From Palaeococcus ferrophilus DSM 13482 (GTDB taxonomy: Archaea; Methanobacteriota_B; Thermococci; Thermococcales; Thermococcaceae): a stretch of DNA of 64,000 nucleotides. How positions within the stretch are numbered: position 1 is the stretch's first letter; every line of letters starts with the position of its first letter. The position numbers and the translations under genes were made by a program. Shown piece after piece: positions 35,538-42,469 of the stretch. The notes below the pieces were generated by a model. It saw only the letters and a list, made by a program, of their open reading frames with translations, was not told the DNA's origin and did no database searches. The DNA is taken from contig NZ_LANF01000019.1 in assembly GCF_000966265.1 (NCBI RefSeq), positions 124,001-188,000 of the forward strand, read 5' to 3'.

Positions 35538-35744
35538 CCCTATTTAAGTTCAGAGTGCCTAATTTAAACGTTTTTGCACATACCGCTGGCTCAACATTGA
35601 ATCTTTTGTTAGATTGCTGTCCTATTGTTGCAGGAATTACACGCCTTTCCCCACCATAGCCAAAAATTTTATAACACTCTACCGCGAAGTAGAGAGATAG
35701 AAACGGTGTCCTTTCATTACGGTCACTGTAGGATGGTGATAATG

Positions 35745-36503
35745 ATGATGCCAGTGGATAGGAAGTCTCTCTTTAAGAGAGTGCCGAGCGGAATTCCTGG
35801 TTTTGATGACCTAATCGAGGGTGGCTTCCCCGAGAACACCACGGTTCTAGTGGCGGGTGGAACCGGTACAGGTAAAACCACGTTCGCTGCCCAGTTCATA
35901 TACAGGGGTGCTGAACTCTACGACGACCCTGGAGTCTTTGTAACCCTCGAGGAGAGGGCAAAGGACATCAGAAGGGAGGTTAAATCCTTCGGATGGGACT
36001 TTAAGAAGTACGAGGATGAGGGCAAGATCGTTATAATAGACGGTGTTAGCTCTTCTGTTGGCCTTCCATCAGAGGAAAAGTTCGCCCTCGAAGACAAGTT
36101 CAACGTGGACAACTTCCTCCGCTACGTTTATCGCGTTGTCAAATCAATAAACGCCAAGCGCCTCGTGATAGACTCTATACCCTCCCTCGCCTTCAGACTT
36201 GCCGAGGAGAGGCAGATCAGGGAAGTGCTCCTTAAGCTCAACACCATACTCCTTGAGATGGGCGTCACCACGGTGCTGACCACGGAGGCCCCCGCCCCCC
36301 AGGAGGGCAGGATCAGCCGCTACGGTATTGAGGAGTACATCGCGAGGGGTGTCGTCCTTCTCGACCTCCAGGAGAGGAACATAGAACTCAAACGCTACCT
36401 CCTCATAAGGAAGATGCGTGAGACCAAGCACTCCATGAGGAAGTACCCCTTCGAGATAACCAGTGATGGAATAGTCGTGTATCCGAGCGGAGAGATATAC
36501 TGA
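35745..36503 (+). CDS. KaiC-like RecA-superfamily ATPase
   Basis: A 252-residue single KaiC domain. It enters with SGIPGFDDLIEGGFPE, has Walker A GGTGTGKTT, a catalytic Glu pair in LEER, and Walker B RLVIDSIPSL. All ATPase residues are intact, unlike the two other family members in this window. Of a cluster of ATGs (35742, 35745, 35748), those after GGTGAT are best. A TTTTATAA box near 35667 gives a ~50-base leader. It is 14 bases upstream of a second ATPase gene. Proposed role: ATP-dependent signalling hub, not a circadian clock. Confidence 0.85.
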   Translation: MMPVDRKSLFKRVPSGIPGFDDLIEGGFPENTTVLVAGGTGTGKTTFAAQFIYRGAELYDDPGVFVTLEERAKDIRREVKSFGWDFKKYEDEGKIVIIDGVSSSVGLPSEEKFALEDKFNVDNFLRYVYRVVKSINAKRLVIDSIPSLAFRLAEERQIREVLLKLNTILLEMGVTTVLTTEAPAPQEGRISRYGIEEYIARGVVLLDLQERNIELKRYLLIRKMRETKHSMRKYPFEITSDGIVVYPSGEIY

Positions 36504-36517
36504 ACCGGGTGATATAG

Positions 36518-37273
36518 GTGCTCCCCCTTGACGGCGAGGAAGTTGAAAGAGAGGTCACTCGAGTTGCTACGGGCGTAATTGACGACCTTATTATGGGGGG
36601 TGTTCCCCGGGGAAGTGTTATCCTCGTTATAGGCGACCCCAAGGCGGGCAAGACGACCTTCGTGAGCCAGTTTATGCACAACCAGCTGCACTACGGTATC
36701 CCAGTAATCAGCATCTTTACGGACATCTCGCGCTACGAGTTCGTGAGCAACGCGATGGACTTTGGCTGGGACTTTGAGAAGTACCTCGACGAGGGACTCT
36801 ACATAATAGACGCCTACACTACCAGGCTCCGCGGGAAGCCGAAGTTCGCCTTCGATGAGGCCATGGTAACCAACGTAAGCGACACAACCCAGATAATAAG
36901 CGCCATAAAGGACATGACGCTCAACATAATGACCAGCAGGAACCCGCCGTTCATAACCGGCGTTATCTCCTCCCTCACCCCCATATTCTTTGAGGCGGAC
37001 AGGAAGCAAATCTACAAGTTTCTGGAGGACCTTAAGGAGCTAGCCCACAGGCAGAAACAGGTGTGGCTGCTCGAGATGAACTCGGGGATAGAGGCCCCCC
37101 ACGTGGAGATGATGGTCAAGGCCATAGTTGACGGCATCATCGAGTTCCGCCTCATGGAGGAGGGAAAAACGCTCAGAAGGTACCTGCGCGTCTACGGAAT
37201 GCGCAGAACAAAGCACGTACTCTCGTGGATTCCCTACGAGATAACGTCGAGGGGTATAAAACTCAATCTTTAA
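36518..37273 (+). CDS. KaiC-like RecA-superfamily ATPase, degenerate Walker B
   Basis: A 251-residue paralogue of the protein at 22849-23568. Walker A is intact (GDPKAGKTT) after IDDLIMGGVPRGS, but the Walker-B strand reads FITGVISSLTPIF with no Asp. A conserved C-terminal signature, YLRVYGMRRTKHVL, is shared with the paralogue. The GTG start follows GGTGAT and lies 14 bases after the intact KaiC gene. An intact and a Walker-B-deficient ATPase side by side suggest a heteromeric complex. Confidence 0.8.
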   Translation: MLPLDGEEVEREVTRVATGVIDDLIMGGVPRGSVILVIGDPKAGKTTFVSQFMHNQLHYGIPVISIFTDISRYEFVSNAMDFGWDFEKYLDEGLYIIDAYTTRLRGKPKFAFDEAMVTNVSDTTQIISAIKDMTLNIMTSRNPPFITGVISSLTPIFFEADRKQIYKFLEDLKELAHRQKQVWLLEMNSGIEAPHVEMMVKAIVDGIIEFRLMEEGKTLRRYLRVYGMRRTKHVLSWIPYEITSRGIKLNL

Positions 37274-38258
37274 TCCCGAGCCCCTCTATTTTTCTGCATA
37301 CCTCCAGGTGGAAGTTGAACTCCTCGAACCACTTTCTCGGGTAAACCTTGAGCTCGTCGAGGCGGGACTTTCCGCCGAATTCGCCGAGGATGTAAACGTT
37401 GTTTACGCTCACCACCCCAAACACGGCCGCGAGGTTGAATATCAGGGAGCGCAGCCCGTAGGCACTCGCAAAAACTTCGTCCGGCTCCTCGTGGGGGTAC
37501 TTAAAGAGAAAGTACTCCACCCCCTCCATTCTCGCTATGTCAGTCATCGCCACGTCCGCCGTGAGAAGGACGGTGAGGGGCGCGTTGTTCTTATCGAAGT
37601 TCTTTATGGTCTTCACGATGCGTTCGTCGTTGGAACGGCCGGAGTTTTCCACTGCCTGAACCTCTATGGCCCTGTACTTCAGCTTTTCAAACTCTCTAAG
37701 GGCCACGTAAGCTGCTTTCCTGGAGCGCTTCTTTCTCCTGTTGTGGAACTCGTCGAGGAGCTCTCCGTGGGGGAGAACCTTTTTCAGGGCCTTAATCTCG
37801 GAGGGGCGGTACTTGAAGTTCATGGCGTTCTCTATCTCCGCCTTGACGAGGTCAACGATTATTATCTCGTGGCTCTTTAGCGGCTCGAAGTTCGAGATGA
37901 AGGAGTGGTAGAGGACGTTGGTGTCGGGGGCGAAGACCACCCCCTTGGTGAGGGACTCGTAGAGCCCCAGCTTCTCCTGGAACTCATCGGCGTTGTCGTA
38001 GGTTATTATACCAGCCGCGAGGAAAGCCTCGTGGAAATCGCGGTACTGGGGGAGTTCGTCGTAGAATTCCCTCTTGTCCCGCAGAAACTCCGAGAACTCC
38101 CTCCTCCCAGTGAGAACTTTTATGTGGTAGCCGCCTTCCACAGGGCGTACCTCAAGGAGATGCATCCCGTAGAGGGGGTACTCCACCCTCAAGCCATTCC
38201 TCTGGAGGAGGTTTATGAGCAGCTGAAGTTCCGCCTTCCGTATTATGAGCTCCCTCAT
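37263..38258 (-). CDS. PIN-domain nuclease with novel N-terminal domain
   Basis: A 331-residue protein. Residues 1-105 have no recognised fold. From residue 108 a PIN-like ribonuclease core follows: FAPDTNVLYHSF (Asp112), the acidic helix VKAEIENAM (Glu141), NDERIVKT and LTADVAMTD. These are the metal-binding acids of VapC-type RNases. The last ~70 residues are again unassigned. It overlaps the CARF-domain gene by four bases (ATGA) and ends a seven-gene operon. The partner suggests a nuclease governed by a cyclic-oligonucleotide or other nucleotide signal. Confidence 0.75.
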   Translation of the reverse strand: MRELIIRKAELQLLINLLQRNGLRVEYPLYGMHLLEVRPVEGGYHIKVLTGRREFSEFLRDKREFYDELPQYRDFHEAFLAAGIITYDNADEFQEKLGLYESLTKGVVFAPDTNVLYHSFISNFEPLKSHEIIIVDLVKAEIENAMNFKYRPSEIKALKKVLPHGELLDEFHNRRKKRSRKAAYVALREFEKLKYRAIEVQAVENSGRSNDERIVKTIKNFDKNNAPLTVLLTADVAMTDIARMEGVEYFLFKYPHEEPDEVFASAYGLRSLIFNLAAVFGVVSVNNVYILGEFGGKSRLDELKVYPRKWFEEFNFHLEVCRKIEGLGIKD

Positions 38259-38725
38259 GTCATCTCCCTCATGAAGTCCCTCAAATGCTGAACGTGGAGG
38301 GGGATCATCATGTAGGGCCTGTCTGCGAAGGACAGCTCCGTTATGGCGAGGTAGTAGACATGGTCTATCCCCTCGTGGAGGCCCTTTATCAGCGTGCCAA
38401 CGACGACGGCCTTTCGTCCGCCTGTTATGTCTACCGCGACCTCAAAACCCTCCGACTTGAGTTTTCTTATGATGGGAACCACCCGCTTTTCCGCCTCCAG
38501 AAAGCTGGCGTTTTCGATAACGACGCTCTCAATCTCGGGGTTGATTCCGAAGGCCTCGGAGATTATCCTGAGTGCCTCCTCGGTCTTCTCGAGCTTTGAT
38601 CTGTAGGCTTCCTCAACAACGATGTAGATGCGTTCGGGGCGGTAGTTCTCCCTCATCAGCACCGCGTAGTAGGAGTTGATGGTCGCCCACGAGGAGCGCC
38701 CGAGCATTGTTATGTAGGCCCTCAT
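38255..38725 (-). CDS. stand-alone CARF-domain protein
   Basis: A 156-residue single-domain protein with the CARF signature DITGGRKAV (Asp99, Thr101, Lys105) before a helix, plus an N-terminal TMLGRSSWA loop. These correspond to the ligand-binding loops of CRISPR-associated Rossmann-fold sensors and of CARF ring nucleases such as Sso2081 (whose key residues are a Ser in the first loop and a Lys after the GG motif). It could sense or cleave cyclic oligoadenylate. No CRISPR array or cas gene is in the window. Cotranslated with the PIN nuclease downstream. Confidence 0.75.
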   Translation of the reverse strand: MRAYITMLGRSSWATINSYYAVLMRENYRPERIYIVVEEAYRSKLEKTEEALRIISEAFGINPEIESVVIENASFLEAEKRVVPIIRKLKSEGFEVAVDITGGRKAVVVGTLIKGLHEGIDHVYYLAITELSFADRPYMMIPLHVQHLRDFMREMT

Positions 38726-38726
38726 A

Positions 38727-39188
38727 CTACTCTATCATGACGAGCCCGTACAAAACACTTTCGGAGAAGTTAATCTCCGTGATGCTCGAGAGCTCTATCC
38801 CCACCGCATCTATGCTGGGCCTCACCTTCTCTGGCATCCTGCATTCACCTGTTCTTTCGAAGGGGCAGTCAAGGCAGAGGTTGCAGTTGCCGGGGAAGAG
38901 GGCAAAGGCGTAGGCTTTTCCCTCCCTGAAAAGCTTGTTCTCAAGCTCGAGGAGGTGATTGAGAACCTCACGCTTCTCCTCCTCGAAACGGGAGTAGTCC
39001 ACCTCGAACTTCACGAGGAGGGCCCTTCTGTAGCTCCTCACCCACTCCCTGGCCTCACCCCACGGGGGAGCGTGGGGAGGGCACGAGGGCCTCTTCCCGT
39101 ACATGGGACAGGAGCGGCACTTCCACACGGGGCGGGGCGAGACGGTGATATCCTCCGCCTCAACCTCCCTTGTGAGGATTACTCTCAT
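38727..39188 (-). CDS. DUF2284 metal-binding protein
   Basis: A 153-residue Cys-rich protein matching the DUF2284 family of predicted metal-binding proteins. It has CRSCPMYGKRPSCPPHAPPW near the N-terminus and a second set, CNLCLDCPF...GECRMPEK, in the C-terminal half; nearly all Cys fall in these two clusters. It probably binds an Fe-S cluster or zinc. Overlaps of four bases with the upstream small gene and one base before the CARF gene place it firmly within the operon. Confidence 0.75.
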   Translation of the reverse strand: MRVILTREVEAEDITVSPRPVWKCRSCPMYGKRPSCPPHAPPWGEAREWVRSYRRALLVKFEVDYSRFEEEKREVLNHLLELENKLFREGKAYAFALFPGNCNLCLDCPFERTGECRMPEKVRPSIDAVGIELSSITEINFSESVLYGLVMIE

Positions 39189-39370
39189 TCCTCTCCCTCG
39201 AGCTCATAAACGACCACGCGGACGCGCTTCCCCTTTAGGGCCTCCTTGAGCGTCCACCAGAGCTCGGTTGGCCTTTCCTGTCGGTGTATAATCTCGTCGT
39301 TCTCCCTTATTTTGACGCGCTCCACTTTCACCTCGTAGAAGACACCCTCCCTGTTGAAGAGCTCCTTCAT
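39185..39370 (-). CDS. small conserved-looking hypothetical protein
   Basis: A 61-residue charged protein, probably a beta-beta-alpha-beta fold. It overlaps both neighbours by four bases (ATGA at each junction) and has GGAGGGATGA upstream, which strongly supports translation. No motif is recognised. It lies between the HAD hydrolase and DUF2284 genes of the HPS-PHI operon. Confidence 0.65.
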   Translation of the reverse strand: MKELFNREGVFYEVKVERVKIRENDEIIHRQERPTELWWTLKEALKGKRVRVVVYELEGEE

Positions 39371-40020
39371 GATTCATCCCTCCTTAGGATTCTCATAAGC
39401 TCCGTGAGGGTTCTCAACTCGTAGTCGGCAAAGTGGTAATCTTCTTCACCGGAGCGGTTTATCCACACGGCCCTCATGCCAACGTTCTTGGCGCCCATGA
39501 CGTCCTGCGTTAGCGAATCTCCCACCATCATGGCCTCCTCGGGCTCAACCCCGAGGCGCTTGAGAGCCTCGAGGAATATTCTGGGCTCGGGTTTTATGGC
39601 CTTTACATCGTCGCGGGTTACGATGGTATCGAAGTAGCCGTCGAGTCCCACCACCCTGAGCTTCAGGCGCTGGTACTCGGGCCCGCTCGTTATTATCCCC
39701 AGCCTGTAGCCGTGTTCCCTGAGCCACTCGAGCATGGGTTTCGTGTCAGGGAACACGGTTATCTTGTGGGGATAGGCCCTCAAAAGCTCCTCGAACCTCA
39801 AGTCAACGTTGAACATCCGGAAGAAGAAGTTCCAGTCGTGCCAGTCGTAGGTGTCCCTCCTTCCCATAATCTCGGCAAGAAAACGCTCCCTGGCCTCTCC
39901 CTTCGTGATTCCAAACTTTCTGGAAATCTGCTCGTAGACCTGGGGCAGAAAGAGCATTATGAGGGACCTCTCGGATAGGAGCGTTTCGTCAATGTCGAAG
40001 AAGAGGGCCCTTACGCTCAT
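39367..40020 (-). CDS. HAD-superfamily hydrolase
   Basis: A 217-residue phosphatase of the HAD superfamily (subfamily IA-like helical cap). Motif I FFDIDETLL, motif II ITSGPEY, motif III KAIKPEP and motif IV MVGDSLTQD are all present, so the enzyme should be active on a phosphorylated metabolite. I start at ATG 40020 because GGTGATTGGG precedes it and the FtsZ-like gene stops five bases upstream. Possible substrates include sugar phosphates linked to the HPS-PHI gene at the operon head. Confidence 0.85.
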   Translation of the reverse strand: MSVRALFFDIDETLLSERSLIMLFLPQVYEQISRKFGITKGEARERFLAEIMGRRDTYDWHDWNFFFRMFNVDLRFEELLRAYPHKITVFPDTKPMLEWLREHGYRLGIITSGPEYQRLKLRVVGLDGYFDTIVTRDDVKAIKPEPRIFLEALKRLGVEPEEAMMVGDSLTQDVMGAKNVGMRAVWINRSGEEDYHFADYELRTLTELMRILRRDES

Positions 40021-40025
40021 CCCAA

Positions 40026-40781
40026 TCACCACTTCTTGATTAGAAGCGCGAGGACTTCAACGTCATCGGCGACCTCTTCGTCTATCTGGACGCCCCATAT
40101 GACGTCCTTCTCCTTTAGTATCTCCTGGAACCGGTGGAGCACCGTGTGGGCATGCGTAAGCGGAACGTTCTTCCCGGCGCGGATGCTTATCAGTCCCCTG
40201 TCCCATATTCCCCAGTGCCAGCTGAAGTCCACTTCATGAAGAAGCCTTATTATGCCGACGTTCCCGCCTCTGACCATGGCGAAGAAGTCCGCGTAGTCAA
40301 CGTTAACGAGCATATCGTTCTCGAGGTAACGGTAGAGCTTTGAGAACATCCCGCCTATTCTCTTTCCGGCGTACTGGAAGGCTTCTTTTATCGAGGCCTC
40401 GCGGTACTCGTTGAGGACCTCCCACAGGGAGTCGTAGAACACCGTCTCAAAGTGCCTCGTCCAGGCCGGCCGCTTCATCGTGACGAGCTCCATGTAAGGG
40501 CTCAGCACATAGGCGAAGCGTACAACGTCCCGGGGTGCATAGAAATCCATGAGTTGGGCAATCTCAATATTCACGGGCTTGTTCTCAAAGACCAGCCACA
40601 TTATGGCGTTCTCGGGAATGTTCTTGAAGAACTCCGCGACGCCTTCCACGAAGGTTCTCTTGTCGAGGAGGTAGTCGGAGGTGTCAACGATAACCCTCTG
40701 GGCGTCATTGACCTCGATGTTTCGCACGATGAGGGAGCCATTGTTCCCTATTCCTATGAAAATATGATTGAAAGGAAGCAT
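40026..40781 (-). CDS. degenerate FtsZ/tubulin-superfamily protein
   Basis: A 251-residue protein that aligns by eye with FtsZ from the middle on. SLWEVL...IKEAFQYAGKRI matches the helix-7 region. MLVNVDYADFFAMV (Asn160, Asp162, Asp165) matches the T7 synergy loop NxDFADV. DVIWGVQIDEEVADDVEV matches the C-terminal IIWGA-x-IDE strand. The N-terminus keeps IGIGNNGS. The GTP-binding G-box (GGGTGTG) is absent; that region reads FENKPVNIEI. At 251 residues it is shorter than FtsZ (~370). It may not bind GTP but could still interact with filaments. The gene begins ten bases after HPS-PHI. Confidence 0.7.
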   Translation of the reverse strand: MLPFNHIFIGIGNNGSLIVRNIEVNDAQRVIVDTSDYLLDKRTFVEGVAEFFKNIPENAIMWLVFENKPVNIEIAQLMDFYAPRDVVRFAYVLSPYMELVTMKRPAWTRHFETVFYDSLWEVLNEYREASIKEAFQYAGKRIGGMFSKLYRYLENDMLVNVDYADFFAMVRGGNVGIIRLLHEVDFSWHWGIWDRGLISIRAGKNVPLTHAHTVLHRFQEILKEKDVIWGVQIDEEVADDVEVLALLIKKW

Positions 40782-40791
40782 GCAAAATCCC

Positions 40792-42012
40792 CTACTCGAG
40801 GGTAGCGTGCTTCCTCTTCATATCCTTTTCGGTCTTCTGGAAAGTCGCCATGAGGAGCGCTATGATTCCGTCGAGGAACACCATGGTGGAATCTTCAAAG
40901 AGCGTGCCCATAGGTGCCGTCCACTTGTACTCCGTGAGCATCTGCCTCGCGATGTAGTCGGTTGGAACGTCCGTCTTGGCCCTTCCGGGGATCGTCACCA
41001 CAACGTCCGCTATCTTTCCGAGGGTCGAGTTGGCGTAGGAGGTTATGGCCACGACCTTTCCGCCCTGCTGCTTGGCTATCTCCGCGGCGTCAACTATCGT
41101 CTTGGTCTCTCCCGAACCGCTGATGGCTATGAGGAGGTCTCCCTCGCCGAAGGCAGGAGTTATGGTCTCACCCACGATGTAAACGTTGAAGTCGAGGTGC
41201 ATGAGCCTCATCCCGAAGGCCTTGCCGACGAGACCGCTCCTTCCGGCGCCGTAGATGAATATCTTGTTCGCGCCTATCATGGCGTCAACCATTCCCCTGA
41301 CCTCTTCGAGCTTGAGGGACTCTGAGACGTGCTCGATGTGCTCCGTTATGTCTTTCATCGCCTTCCTCACGGTCATCATGTACTCTCCCCAGAAGAGGTC
41401 TATAATCTGCCTCGTCACCTTTTCAGGGTCCTGGGCCTTTGTTATGGCACCGCCGACGATGATTATAGTGGCTCCAAGCTCTATGACCTTCGGTATCGTC
41501 TCGAGGTTGAGCCCTCCCGCAACTGCCACGGGGATTTTAACGGCCTTGATGACCTTCTCGAGGTCTTCGAGGGGGCTCTTGCCCTGGAGCTGTTCGTCTA
41601 TCCCCGTGTGCACTAGGATGTAGTCAACGCCCATCGCCTCGAGCTCCTTGGCCCTCTTGACCTTGTCCTTGACGCCTATGAGGTCAACCATGACCCTGAC
41701 GCCGTACCTTCTGGCGACCTTGACGGCGTCCTTTATGGTCTTATCGTCGGCGACCGCGAGAATAGAAACGACATCGGCGCCGTGTCTCGCCGCTATCTCC
41801 ACCTCGAGGGCACCTGTGTCCATGGTCTTTAAATCGGCCACTATCTTCCTGTCCGGGAAGCGGCGCTTCATGAGTTCAACCGCCCTCATGCCCTCCGTCT
41901 TCACGAGGGGAGTTCCCACCTCGAGCCAGTGGGCGCCGCCGCGTGCCGCCTTTTCCGCTATGCTCATAGCCGTTTCGATATCCGTTAAGTCGAGCGCAAC
42001 CTGAAGTATCAT
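40792..42012 (-). CDS. hps-phi: fused hexulose-6-phosphate synthase / 6-phospho-3-hexuloisomerase
   Basis: A 406-residue bifunctional enzyme. Residues 1-~215 are a TIM-barrel hexulose-6-phosphate synthase (ADLKTMDTG, DLIGVKDK, VHTGID, VAGGLN). Residues ~230-406 are the SIS-domain isomerase (IYGAGRSG, AISGSGET). In Thermococcales this fusion runs in reverse, from fructose 6-phosphate to ribulose 5-phosphate plus formaldehyde, supplying pentoses in place of the oxidative pentose pathway. The start is ATG 42012, seven bases after GGAGGT; the longer frame upstream is not translated. It leads a seven-gene operon. Confidence 0.92.
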   Translation of the reverse strand: MILQVALDLTDIETAMSIAEKAARGGAHWLEVGTPLVKTEGMRAVELMKRRFPDRKIVADLKTMDTGALEVEIAARHGADVVSILAVADDKTIKDAVKVARRYGVRVMVDLIGVKDKVKRAKELEAMGVDYILVHTGIDEQLQGKSPLEDLEKVIKAVKIPVAVAGGLNLETIPKVIELGATIIIVGGAITKAQDPEKVTRQIIDLFWGEYMMTVRKAMKDITEHIEHVSESLKLEEVRGMVDAMIGANKIFIYGAGRSGLVGKAFGMRLMHLDFNVYIVGETITPAFGEGDLLIAISGSGETKTIVDAAEIAKQQGGKVVAITSYANSTLGKIADVVVTIPGRAKTDVPTDYIARQMLTEYKWTAPMGTLFEDSTMVFLDGIIALLMATFQKTEKDMKRKHATLE

Positions 42013-42166
42013 CTTTAGTACCTCCAGAGGCTGTCGGCTTAACATCAATAGTCCACTTCTTAAGCTTAACCCTTGGACGTTTTGCCATGAAAGTGGCAAT
42101 CAGAAGAGACCTATCTCCATGACCTCCTCCTCGCCCTAAAGGATGGGGTTTTCACAGAGGAAACCC

Positions 42167-42469
42167 CTACCCCAAGGGCGGAGAGGTTCGAGGGGTCTTC
42201 ATTAGAACCCAATTTACGTTGGGTTCTTCGAACTCCTCTGGGGTGGCCATACCCCCATTACCCCTACCCCCAGCTAAAGCTGGAAGGCTCGGGGTTATGC
42301 TTCCTATGGCTTTTTTCAAAATATTGAAAGCACCAACCAACTCAGCATTCATAACGACACCCTCCCTATGGCACTTAAACAAACCTCTAACAAAGCGAGC
42401 ATTCTTATGGCGTTGGCCACAGAGAGGGCAAACCTGAGAAGTGAAAGCCTCATCAACGAGCTTAACCAC
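42167..42469 (-). pseudogene. TnpB C-terminal fragment
   Basis: An open frame of 100 codons starts at an internal GTG. It encodes the TnpB zinc-finger region (SQVCPLCGQRHKN, then FKCHREG) and the last RuvC segment MNAELVGAFNIL. The second zinc Cys pair is broken: only one Cys remains. The RuvC-III Asp of the usual NADLVGAFNIL is Glu here. About 300 upstream codons are missing. The final ~40 codons read through the structured element end. It is not a functional nuclease. Confidence 0.75.
42186..42300 (-). ncRNA. possible omega-RNA relic of the IS605-type element
   Basis: The region behind tnpB has two strong stem-loops: GAACCCAA-TTTACG-TTGGGTTC at 42206-42227 and CCAGCT-AA-AGCTGG at 42271-42284. 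In IS200/IS605 elements the tnpB 3' end and right end are transcribed as the guide (omega) RNA, and this placement fits. Whether it is still expressed cannot be told from sequence. Confidence 0.4.

Follow-up and report, generated by a model that had tools for sequence, protein, structure and literature searches.

The window analyzed in this study, a stretch of 64,000 nucleotides from Palaeococcus ferrophilus DSM 13482, carries on its minus strand a gene for a small FtsZ-like protein, which is enclosed in a compact operon of four genes (positions are those of the window; upstream gene first):

40792–42099, minus strand: hps-phi, the upstream operon gene, encoding a bifunctional 3-hexulose-6-phosphate synthase/6-phospho-3-hexuloisomerase (NF041755, 545.1 bits; cut-off, 500)
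40026–40781, minus strand: gene for the FtsZ-like protein, a putative pseudo-GTPase, product P0001 (open reading frame with ATG start; 251 aa)
39367–40032, minus strand: downstream operon gene for a HAD-family phosphatase (TIGR02253, 188.7 bits; cut-off, 169.75)
39185–39370, minus strand: downstream and last operon gene, encoding a protein of 61 aa (assigned by conserved gene order)

The hps-phi reading frame as listed begins at an upstream TTG, with the family match beginning at residue 29, and the FtsZ-like gene and the HAD phosphatase gene as listed overlap at the 3′ end of the former. The 61-aa protein gave no Pfam or NCBIfam match; it is conserved, and has a motif resembling PTxLWWxLKEAxKGKxVxIxxYE. 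Within the FtsZ-like gene, the following elements were located:

40737–40760, minus strand: FIGIGNNG, residues 8–15, leftover of strand S1 and loop T1 (alignment)
40665–40667, minus strand: residue 39, the site past which about 27 FtsZ residues (T3 loop region) are absent (joint alignment)
40587–40592, minus strand: residues 64/65, the site at which the eight-residue G-box is deleted (joint alignment; motif count)
40560–40589, minus strand: FENKPVNIEI, residues 65–74, aligned with the part of FtsZ that follows the G-box
40287–40304, minus strand: T7 catalytic loop NVDYAD, residues 160–165 (N160, D162, A164, and D165 identical in 89/89 relatives)
40203–40220, minus strand: family-specific motif WHWGIW, residues 188–193 (W188, W190, G191, and W193 invariant)
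40092–40100, minus strand: IWG of strand S9, residues 228–230 (invariant in 89/89)

The family counts refer to 89 sequences, which were left from 95 after four duplicates (L001, L002, L004, and L064) and two fragments of the locus L098 had been dropped; they include two copies from one genome (G066), and the partial copy of another (G064) is not among them. An earlier note on this DNA, made from the letters alone, had described a 251-residue protein with an NVDYAD loop and an IIWGA-x-IDE-like strand, keeping the T7 loop of FtsZ without its G-box. The reading frame, the loop, and the strand (IWGVQIDE, residues 228–235) are all borne out, and the pattern extends to the whole family; the T7 motif NxDxAD is present in 89/89 relatives, and the G-box GGGTG[T/S]G in 0/89, versus 31/31 canonical paralogues, by motif count. 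The position of FENKPVNIEI, which the same note had equated with that of GGGTGTG, has to be revised. When 17 family members were aligned jointly with 27 FtsZ1/FtsZ2 sequences, the G-box proved to be cut out by the absence of eight residues between residues 64 and 65, and FENKPVNIEI, including N71 that is invariant in the family, lies after this deletion and aligns with the start of the next helix, by which its role as a G-box substitute is ruled out.

Compared with FtsZ, the joint alignment also shows the T3 region shortened by about 27 residues, helix H9 by sixteen, and the segment following T5 by seven; no C-terminal tail is present. The Asp of T2, the Asn of T6, and the Asp of H7, among which are positions contacting the guanine in FtsZ, are all replaced. 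At the H7 position, all the aligned FtsZ rows have Asp, whereas the family has Ser (60), Ala (18), Thr (8), or Gly (3), accounting for the 89 sequences. Besides T7, the IWG strand and remnants of T1 (F8, G10, and G12 invariant in 89/89; G15 in 88/89) and T5 (P95 and E98 invariant in 89/89) are kept. Altogether, 48 residues are invariant, 30 of them in the second half, and are densest in T6, T7–H8, S7, and S9; the Trp-rich WHWGIW is among the most conserved stretches, and is absent from the aligned FtsZ rows. The pattern NxDxx[D/E] occurs in 27/31 canonical rows, the four without a match being the CetZ rows of Thermococcales (L101 and L148–L150), unlike FtsZ1/FtsZ2 and the FtsZ-like protein. 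We infer that the FtsZ-like protein does not bind GTP. An ordinary small FtsZ that binds GTP or another nucleotide via the T1 remnant GIGxxG and via P95/E98 of T5 would agree with the invariance of F8, G10, G12, P95, and E98 and the near-invariance of G15, but, with the G-box, T3, and the above residues of T2, T6, and H7 all lost, it is very improbable.

In searches with family models, the protein gave only sub-threshold matches to FtsZ_C (Pfam PF12327, 19.1 bits; cut-off, 27) and FtsZ (NCBIfam TIGR00065, 22.7 bits; cut-off, 295.2), and a Pfam search of the genome gave no PF00091 match at this gene. Three canonical FtsZ/CetZ genes are located elsewhere in the same genome. A profile built from 33 relatives of the FtsZ-like protein matched M. 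jannaschii (Methanocaldococcus) FtsZ in the PDB with an E-value of 2.3e-7, in three collinear pieces corresponding to S1–T1–H1, H7–T7–H8, and S8–H10–S9, the first of which is not significant alone. In profile–profile comparison with paralogues found in Thermococcales and elsewhere in the class, for which the FtsZ1/FtsZ2 labels were given by similarity, the best match was FtsZ2 (E-value, 1.4e-13; probability, 98), followed by FtsZ1 (3.5e-9) and CetZ (0.042). Taken alone, the N-terminal half gave a weak match (best p, 0.0035), though in the correct order. Because of the E-values to the PDB entry and to FtsZ2, and the identity of the T7 residues in every relative, the observation is far above chance. 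The protein belongs to the tubulin/FtsZ superfamily as a novel variant, and is not classed as FtsZ because the G-box was searched for and is absent. In a tree, the family adjoins the FtsZ2 of Thermococcales, but its branch, at 7.27 changes per column, is so long that the placement is a hint only; the CetZ rows in the tree, cut at fixed positions, are unreliable. Judging from these sequence comparisons, the FtsZ2 branch is probably the source of the FtsZ-like family.

Two AlphaFold models were generated with five sequences only, the second one being that of a relative (L003) instead of the window protein. Both are of low confidence (mean pLDDT, 54.0 and 61.8; pTM, 0.54 and 0.62), which is lowest in the T7/C-terminal part. 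With the first model, the best 50 PDB matches in Foldseek are all FtsZ (best E-value, 7.3e-8; TM, 0.31–0.47; rmsd, 11–20); with the second and better one, ranks 1–31 are all FtsZ (best E-value, 1.4e-5); CetZ2 comes at rank 35, and some unrelated glycosidases are among the ranks from 32 down. The best 50 entries by VIA are only FtsZ or CetZ, the CetZ rows coming from other archaea, and E. coli FtsZ was aligned over 213 residues of the low-confidence model with a Z of 13.2 and an rmsd of 5.0. The order of the predicted elements is that of FtsZ without the T3 region and helix H9. The FtsZ-type fold expected in the earlier note thus holds, the best Foldseek and VIA matches being FtsZ/CetZ and not of an unlike fold, and a two-domain tubulin/FtsZ fold is shown for the 251-aa protein at the level of predicted models.

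In a search of the order, all 94 genomes gave some match at E ≤ 0.1; with true relatives defined by E below 1e-50, the FtsZ-like gene is present in 89/94 Thermococcales genomes, one copy being partial (G064). Among the five genomes without the gene, two (G061 and G063) have an hps-phi truncated where the contig stops, and G035, G049, and G056 have neither the FtsZ-like gene nor hps-phi, with only partial matches to related sugar-isomerase domains. Since hps-phi is truncated or likewise absent in them, an assembly gap or joint loss fits these five cases. A search of 21 genomes from the other families in the class (Thermococci) revealed no family member; 17 of them gave any match at E ≤ 0.001, with a best of 2.4e-6, versus 1.8e-110 or better for full-length members, and among the matches listed for these genomes, the rows of G108 and G112 cover the C-terminal half, like canonical FtsZ. 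The plasmids and phages searched contained no relatives of the FtsZ-like protein, none of 36 pattern matches in viral contigs was confirmed as a relative, and a PHROGs search gave nothing for it. Across 106 close pairs, dN/dS has a median of 0.063 and ranges from 0.021 to 0.195, indicating purifying selection; with this value and the presence of the gene in 89/94 genomes, a chance reading frame or pseudogene is ruled out.

The gene order hps-phi > FtsZ-like > HAD phosphatase is kept in 94/94 loci carrying the gene, and the 61-aa gene is next in 93 of these, the exception (L073) stopping at a contig end; the 94 loci include four second fetches of the same place and the broken locus L098 of G069. 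The genes are closely spaced, with a median of 9 bases between hps-phi and the FtsZ-like gene, a median overlap of 8 bases between the FtsZ-like and HAD genes (n = 89), and the 61-aa gene beginning 4 bases inside the HAD gene in 66/88 loci; two spacing values were outliers (−756 and 864, the former being probably G074). No near-complete hps-phi without the FtsZ-like gene was found in eight genomes checked. The invariant operon of hps-phi, FtsZ-like, HAD, and 61-aa genes is newly found here, and the only fixed gene neighbors are metabolic genes, not division genes. The fused Hps-Phi of Thermococcales converts fructose 6-phosphate to ribulose 5-phosphate and formaldehyde, feeding nucleotide synthesis, according to the available text of PMC12628685.

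It is possible, if somewhat doubtful, that the FtsZ fold was co-opted for a regulatory or scaffolding task within the operon, in which it would bind Hps-Phi, the phosphatase, or the product of the 61-aa gene and, e.g., sense sugar phosphate or formaldehyde, while playing no part at the division ring. This is the main alternative to the cap reading proposed below, and the operon is equally compatible with it. The kept gene order, the short spacing and overlaps, the constant company of hps-phi in the genomes checked, and the new invariant Trp motif and T6 region are all in favor of such an operon partner. It leaves unexplained, however, the invariant T7 catalytic residues in an otherwise variable protein (mean pairwise identity within the family, 59%), and is at odds with the much faster divergence of the FtsZ-like protein than of Hps-Phi (mean identity to the window, 51% versus 87%).

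Based on the parts lost and kept, we tentatively propose, with a probability of about 0.45, that the protein is an FtsZ2-derived pseudo-GTPase, whose surviving T7 face would dock on GTP-loaded FtsZ and cap it or trigger hydrolysis, with its dose tied to the pentose supply. In an FtsZ filament, each subunit holds GTP on its upper face, and the active site is completed by the lower-face T7 loop of the subunit that follows; in those of Staphylococcus aureus, the catalytic water is positioned by the T7 Asp belonging to the top subunit (as given in the available part of PMC8936486). In the FtsZ-like protein, the nucleotide pocket (upper face) has been lost and the T7/C-terminal (lower) face retained. 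In its plainest, one-sided use, this lower face may attach to the end subunit of an FtsZ1 or FtsZ2 filament, on the side where GTP lies exposed, and would supply N160, D162, and D165 in trans, so that the GTP of the terminal subunit would be hydrolyzed. With no pocket for a further subunit, the protein would serve as a chain terminator or GTPase-activating cap, leading to shorter filaments. Because it is co-encoded with the enzyme making ribulose 5-phosphate, its level would follow the pentose/nucleotide supply, and would tune division to that supply. We infer the docking, the capping, and the metabolic coupling alike, and capping or depolymerizing of FtsZ filaments, as suggested in the earlier note, would be consistent with the anatomy of the protein. 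The invariant operon with hps-phi, which that note does not mention, opens the way to a metabolic reading.

Alternatively, a GTP-independent structural subunit may polymerize or co-polymerize within the FtsZ filament, acting as filler or as a point of branching rather than as a cap, as would suit the FtsZ fold and the retained T7 face; but the upper face is devoid of T3, the G-box, and part of T5/H6, and the next subunit therefore has little to bind, making this improbable. The cap reading itself is opposed by the absence of helix H9 and the C-terminal tail, because of which the lower face is altered too. The low confidence of the models, the weak match of the N-terminal half, and the metabolic nature of the only fixed neighbors count against it as well. 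Also, the presence of WHWGIW in this family and not in FtsZ suggests a partner different from that of FtsZ, and folding may instead be what preserves the T7 residues. In its fullest form, which we consider unlikely, the proposed cap would amount to a built-in FtsZ chain terminator: a decayed FtsZ with the catalytic face only, which would cap the filament at its GTP end, activate the GTPase there, and, through its place in the pentose-synthesis operon, make division of Thermococcales follow the supply of nucleotide precursors.

Among known systems, archaeal FtsZ2/FtsZ1 are the best profile matches and have in common with the FtsZ-like protein the two-domain fold, helix H7, the T7 motif NxDxAD, and the IWG of strand S9, but are larger (~370–415 aa versus 251 aa) and possess the G-box, T3 loop, H9, and C-terminal tail that it lacks. 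The CetZ of Thermococcales shares the superfamily fold, yet keeps the G-box and is matched only at the above E-value of 0.042. Plant ARC3 is an FtsZ-like, multi-domain plastid protein that opposes Z-ring assembly. FtsZl1 and FtsZl2 are, like the present family, divergent FtsZ-like families; as far as the available text of PMC2875224 goes, both keep GGGTG(S/T)G and FtsZl1 is without identifiable T6–H7, whereas in the present family the situation is reversed, with the G-box gone and H7–T7 kept. The same source (Makarova and Koonin 2010) mentions functional motifs missing in some archaeal FtsZ paralogues. SulA and MciZ, caps that are not FtsZ proteins, block filament ends, the outcome also proposed for the FtsZ-like protein; they bind the T7/C-terminal side of FtsZ (excerpts of PMC4929429), whereas the FtsZ-like protein, itself an FtsZ relative, would bind the opposite GTP face. 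In a survey of CetZ covering 550 archaeal superfamily proteins, the available part of PMC9856176 gives one CetZ per species for Thermococcales, and divergent superfamily proteins in two strains only. UgtP and OpgH, as far as described in the available excerpts, tie division or cell size to the nutrient state, comparable to the coupling proposed here, but are bacterial glucosyltransferases and not FtsZ relatives. No description of the FtsZ-like family or its operon was found in the open-licence PMC literature, with subscription papers and preprints outside the scope of this search. The family may already bear a cluster number in some database.

To our knowledge, the regulation of archaeal FtsZ is largely open. 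A conserved relative of FtsZ whose hydrolysis face is separated would offer a natural means of testing T7 action in trans, and the FtsZ-like protein could regulate the turnover of FtsZ inside the cell. Such a regulator would also connect central carbon metabolism with division in a group that has a genetically tractable member, Thermococcus kodakarensis.

Several loci and flanking genes deserve brief mention. One genome of 88% completeness (G066) has two full FtsZ-like copies with hps-phi, on contigs C33 and C157, which could reflect mixed strains in the assembly. Besides an intact operon copy elsewhere, G069 has a second operon region (L098; contig C2, ~360947–361853), in which the FtsZ-like gene is frame-broken and hps-phi is a 32-residue remnant. 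A fusion of hps-phi and the FtsZ-like gene in G074 (open frame of 662 aa) was rejected as evidence; compared with the close relative L018, it has one extra A in an A run, and is likely a sequencing error. Just upstream of hps-phi in the window, an open reading frame of 100 aa on the minus strand (42167–42469) has a zinc-finger-like end, and resembles a remnant of a TnpB-type transposon protein. A 156-aa Csa3-N/CARF-like protein is encoded on the minus strand at 38255–38725, adjoining a DUF2284 gene and a PIN-domain gene; among the loci, many of which had short flanks, it is near the operon only in L005 and L010–L012. Two adjacent genes on the plus strand (35625–36503 and 36518–37273) encode KaiC/RadA-like ATPases with P-loop motifs, named by eye.
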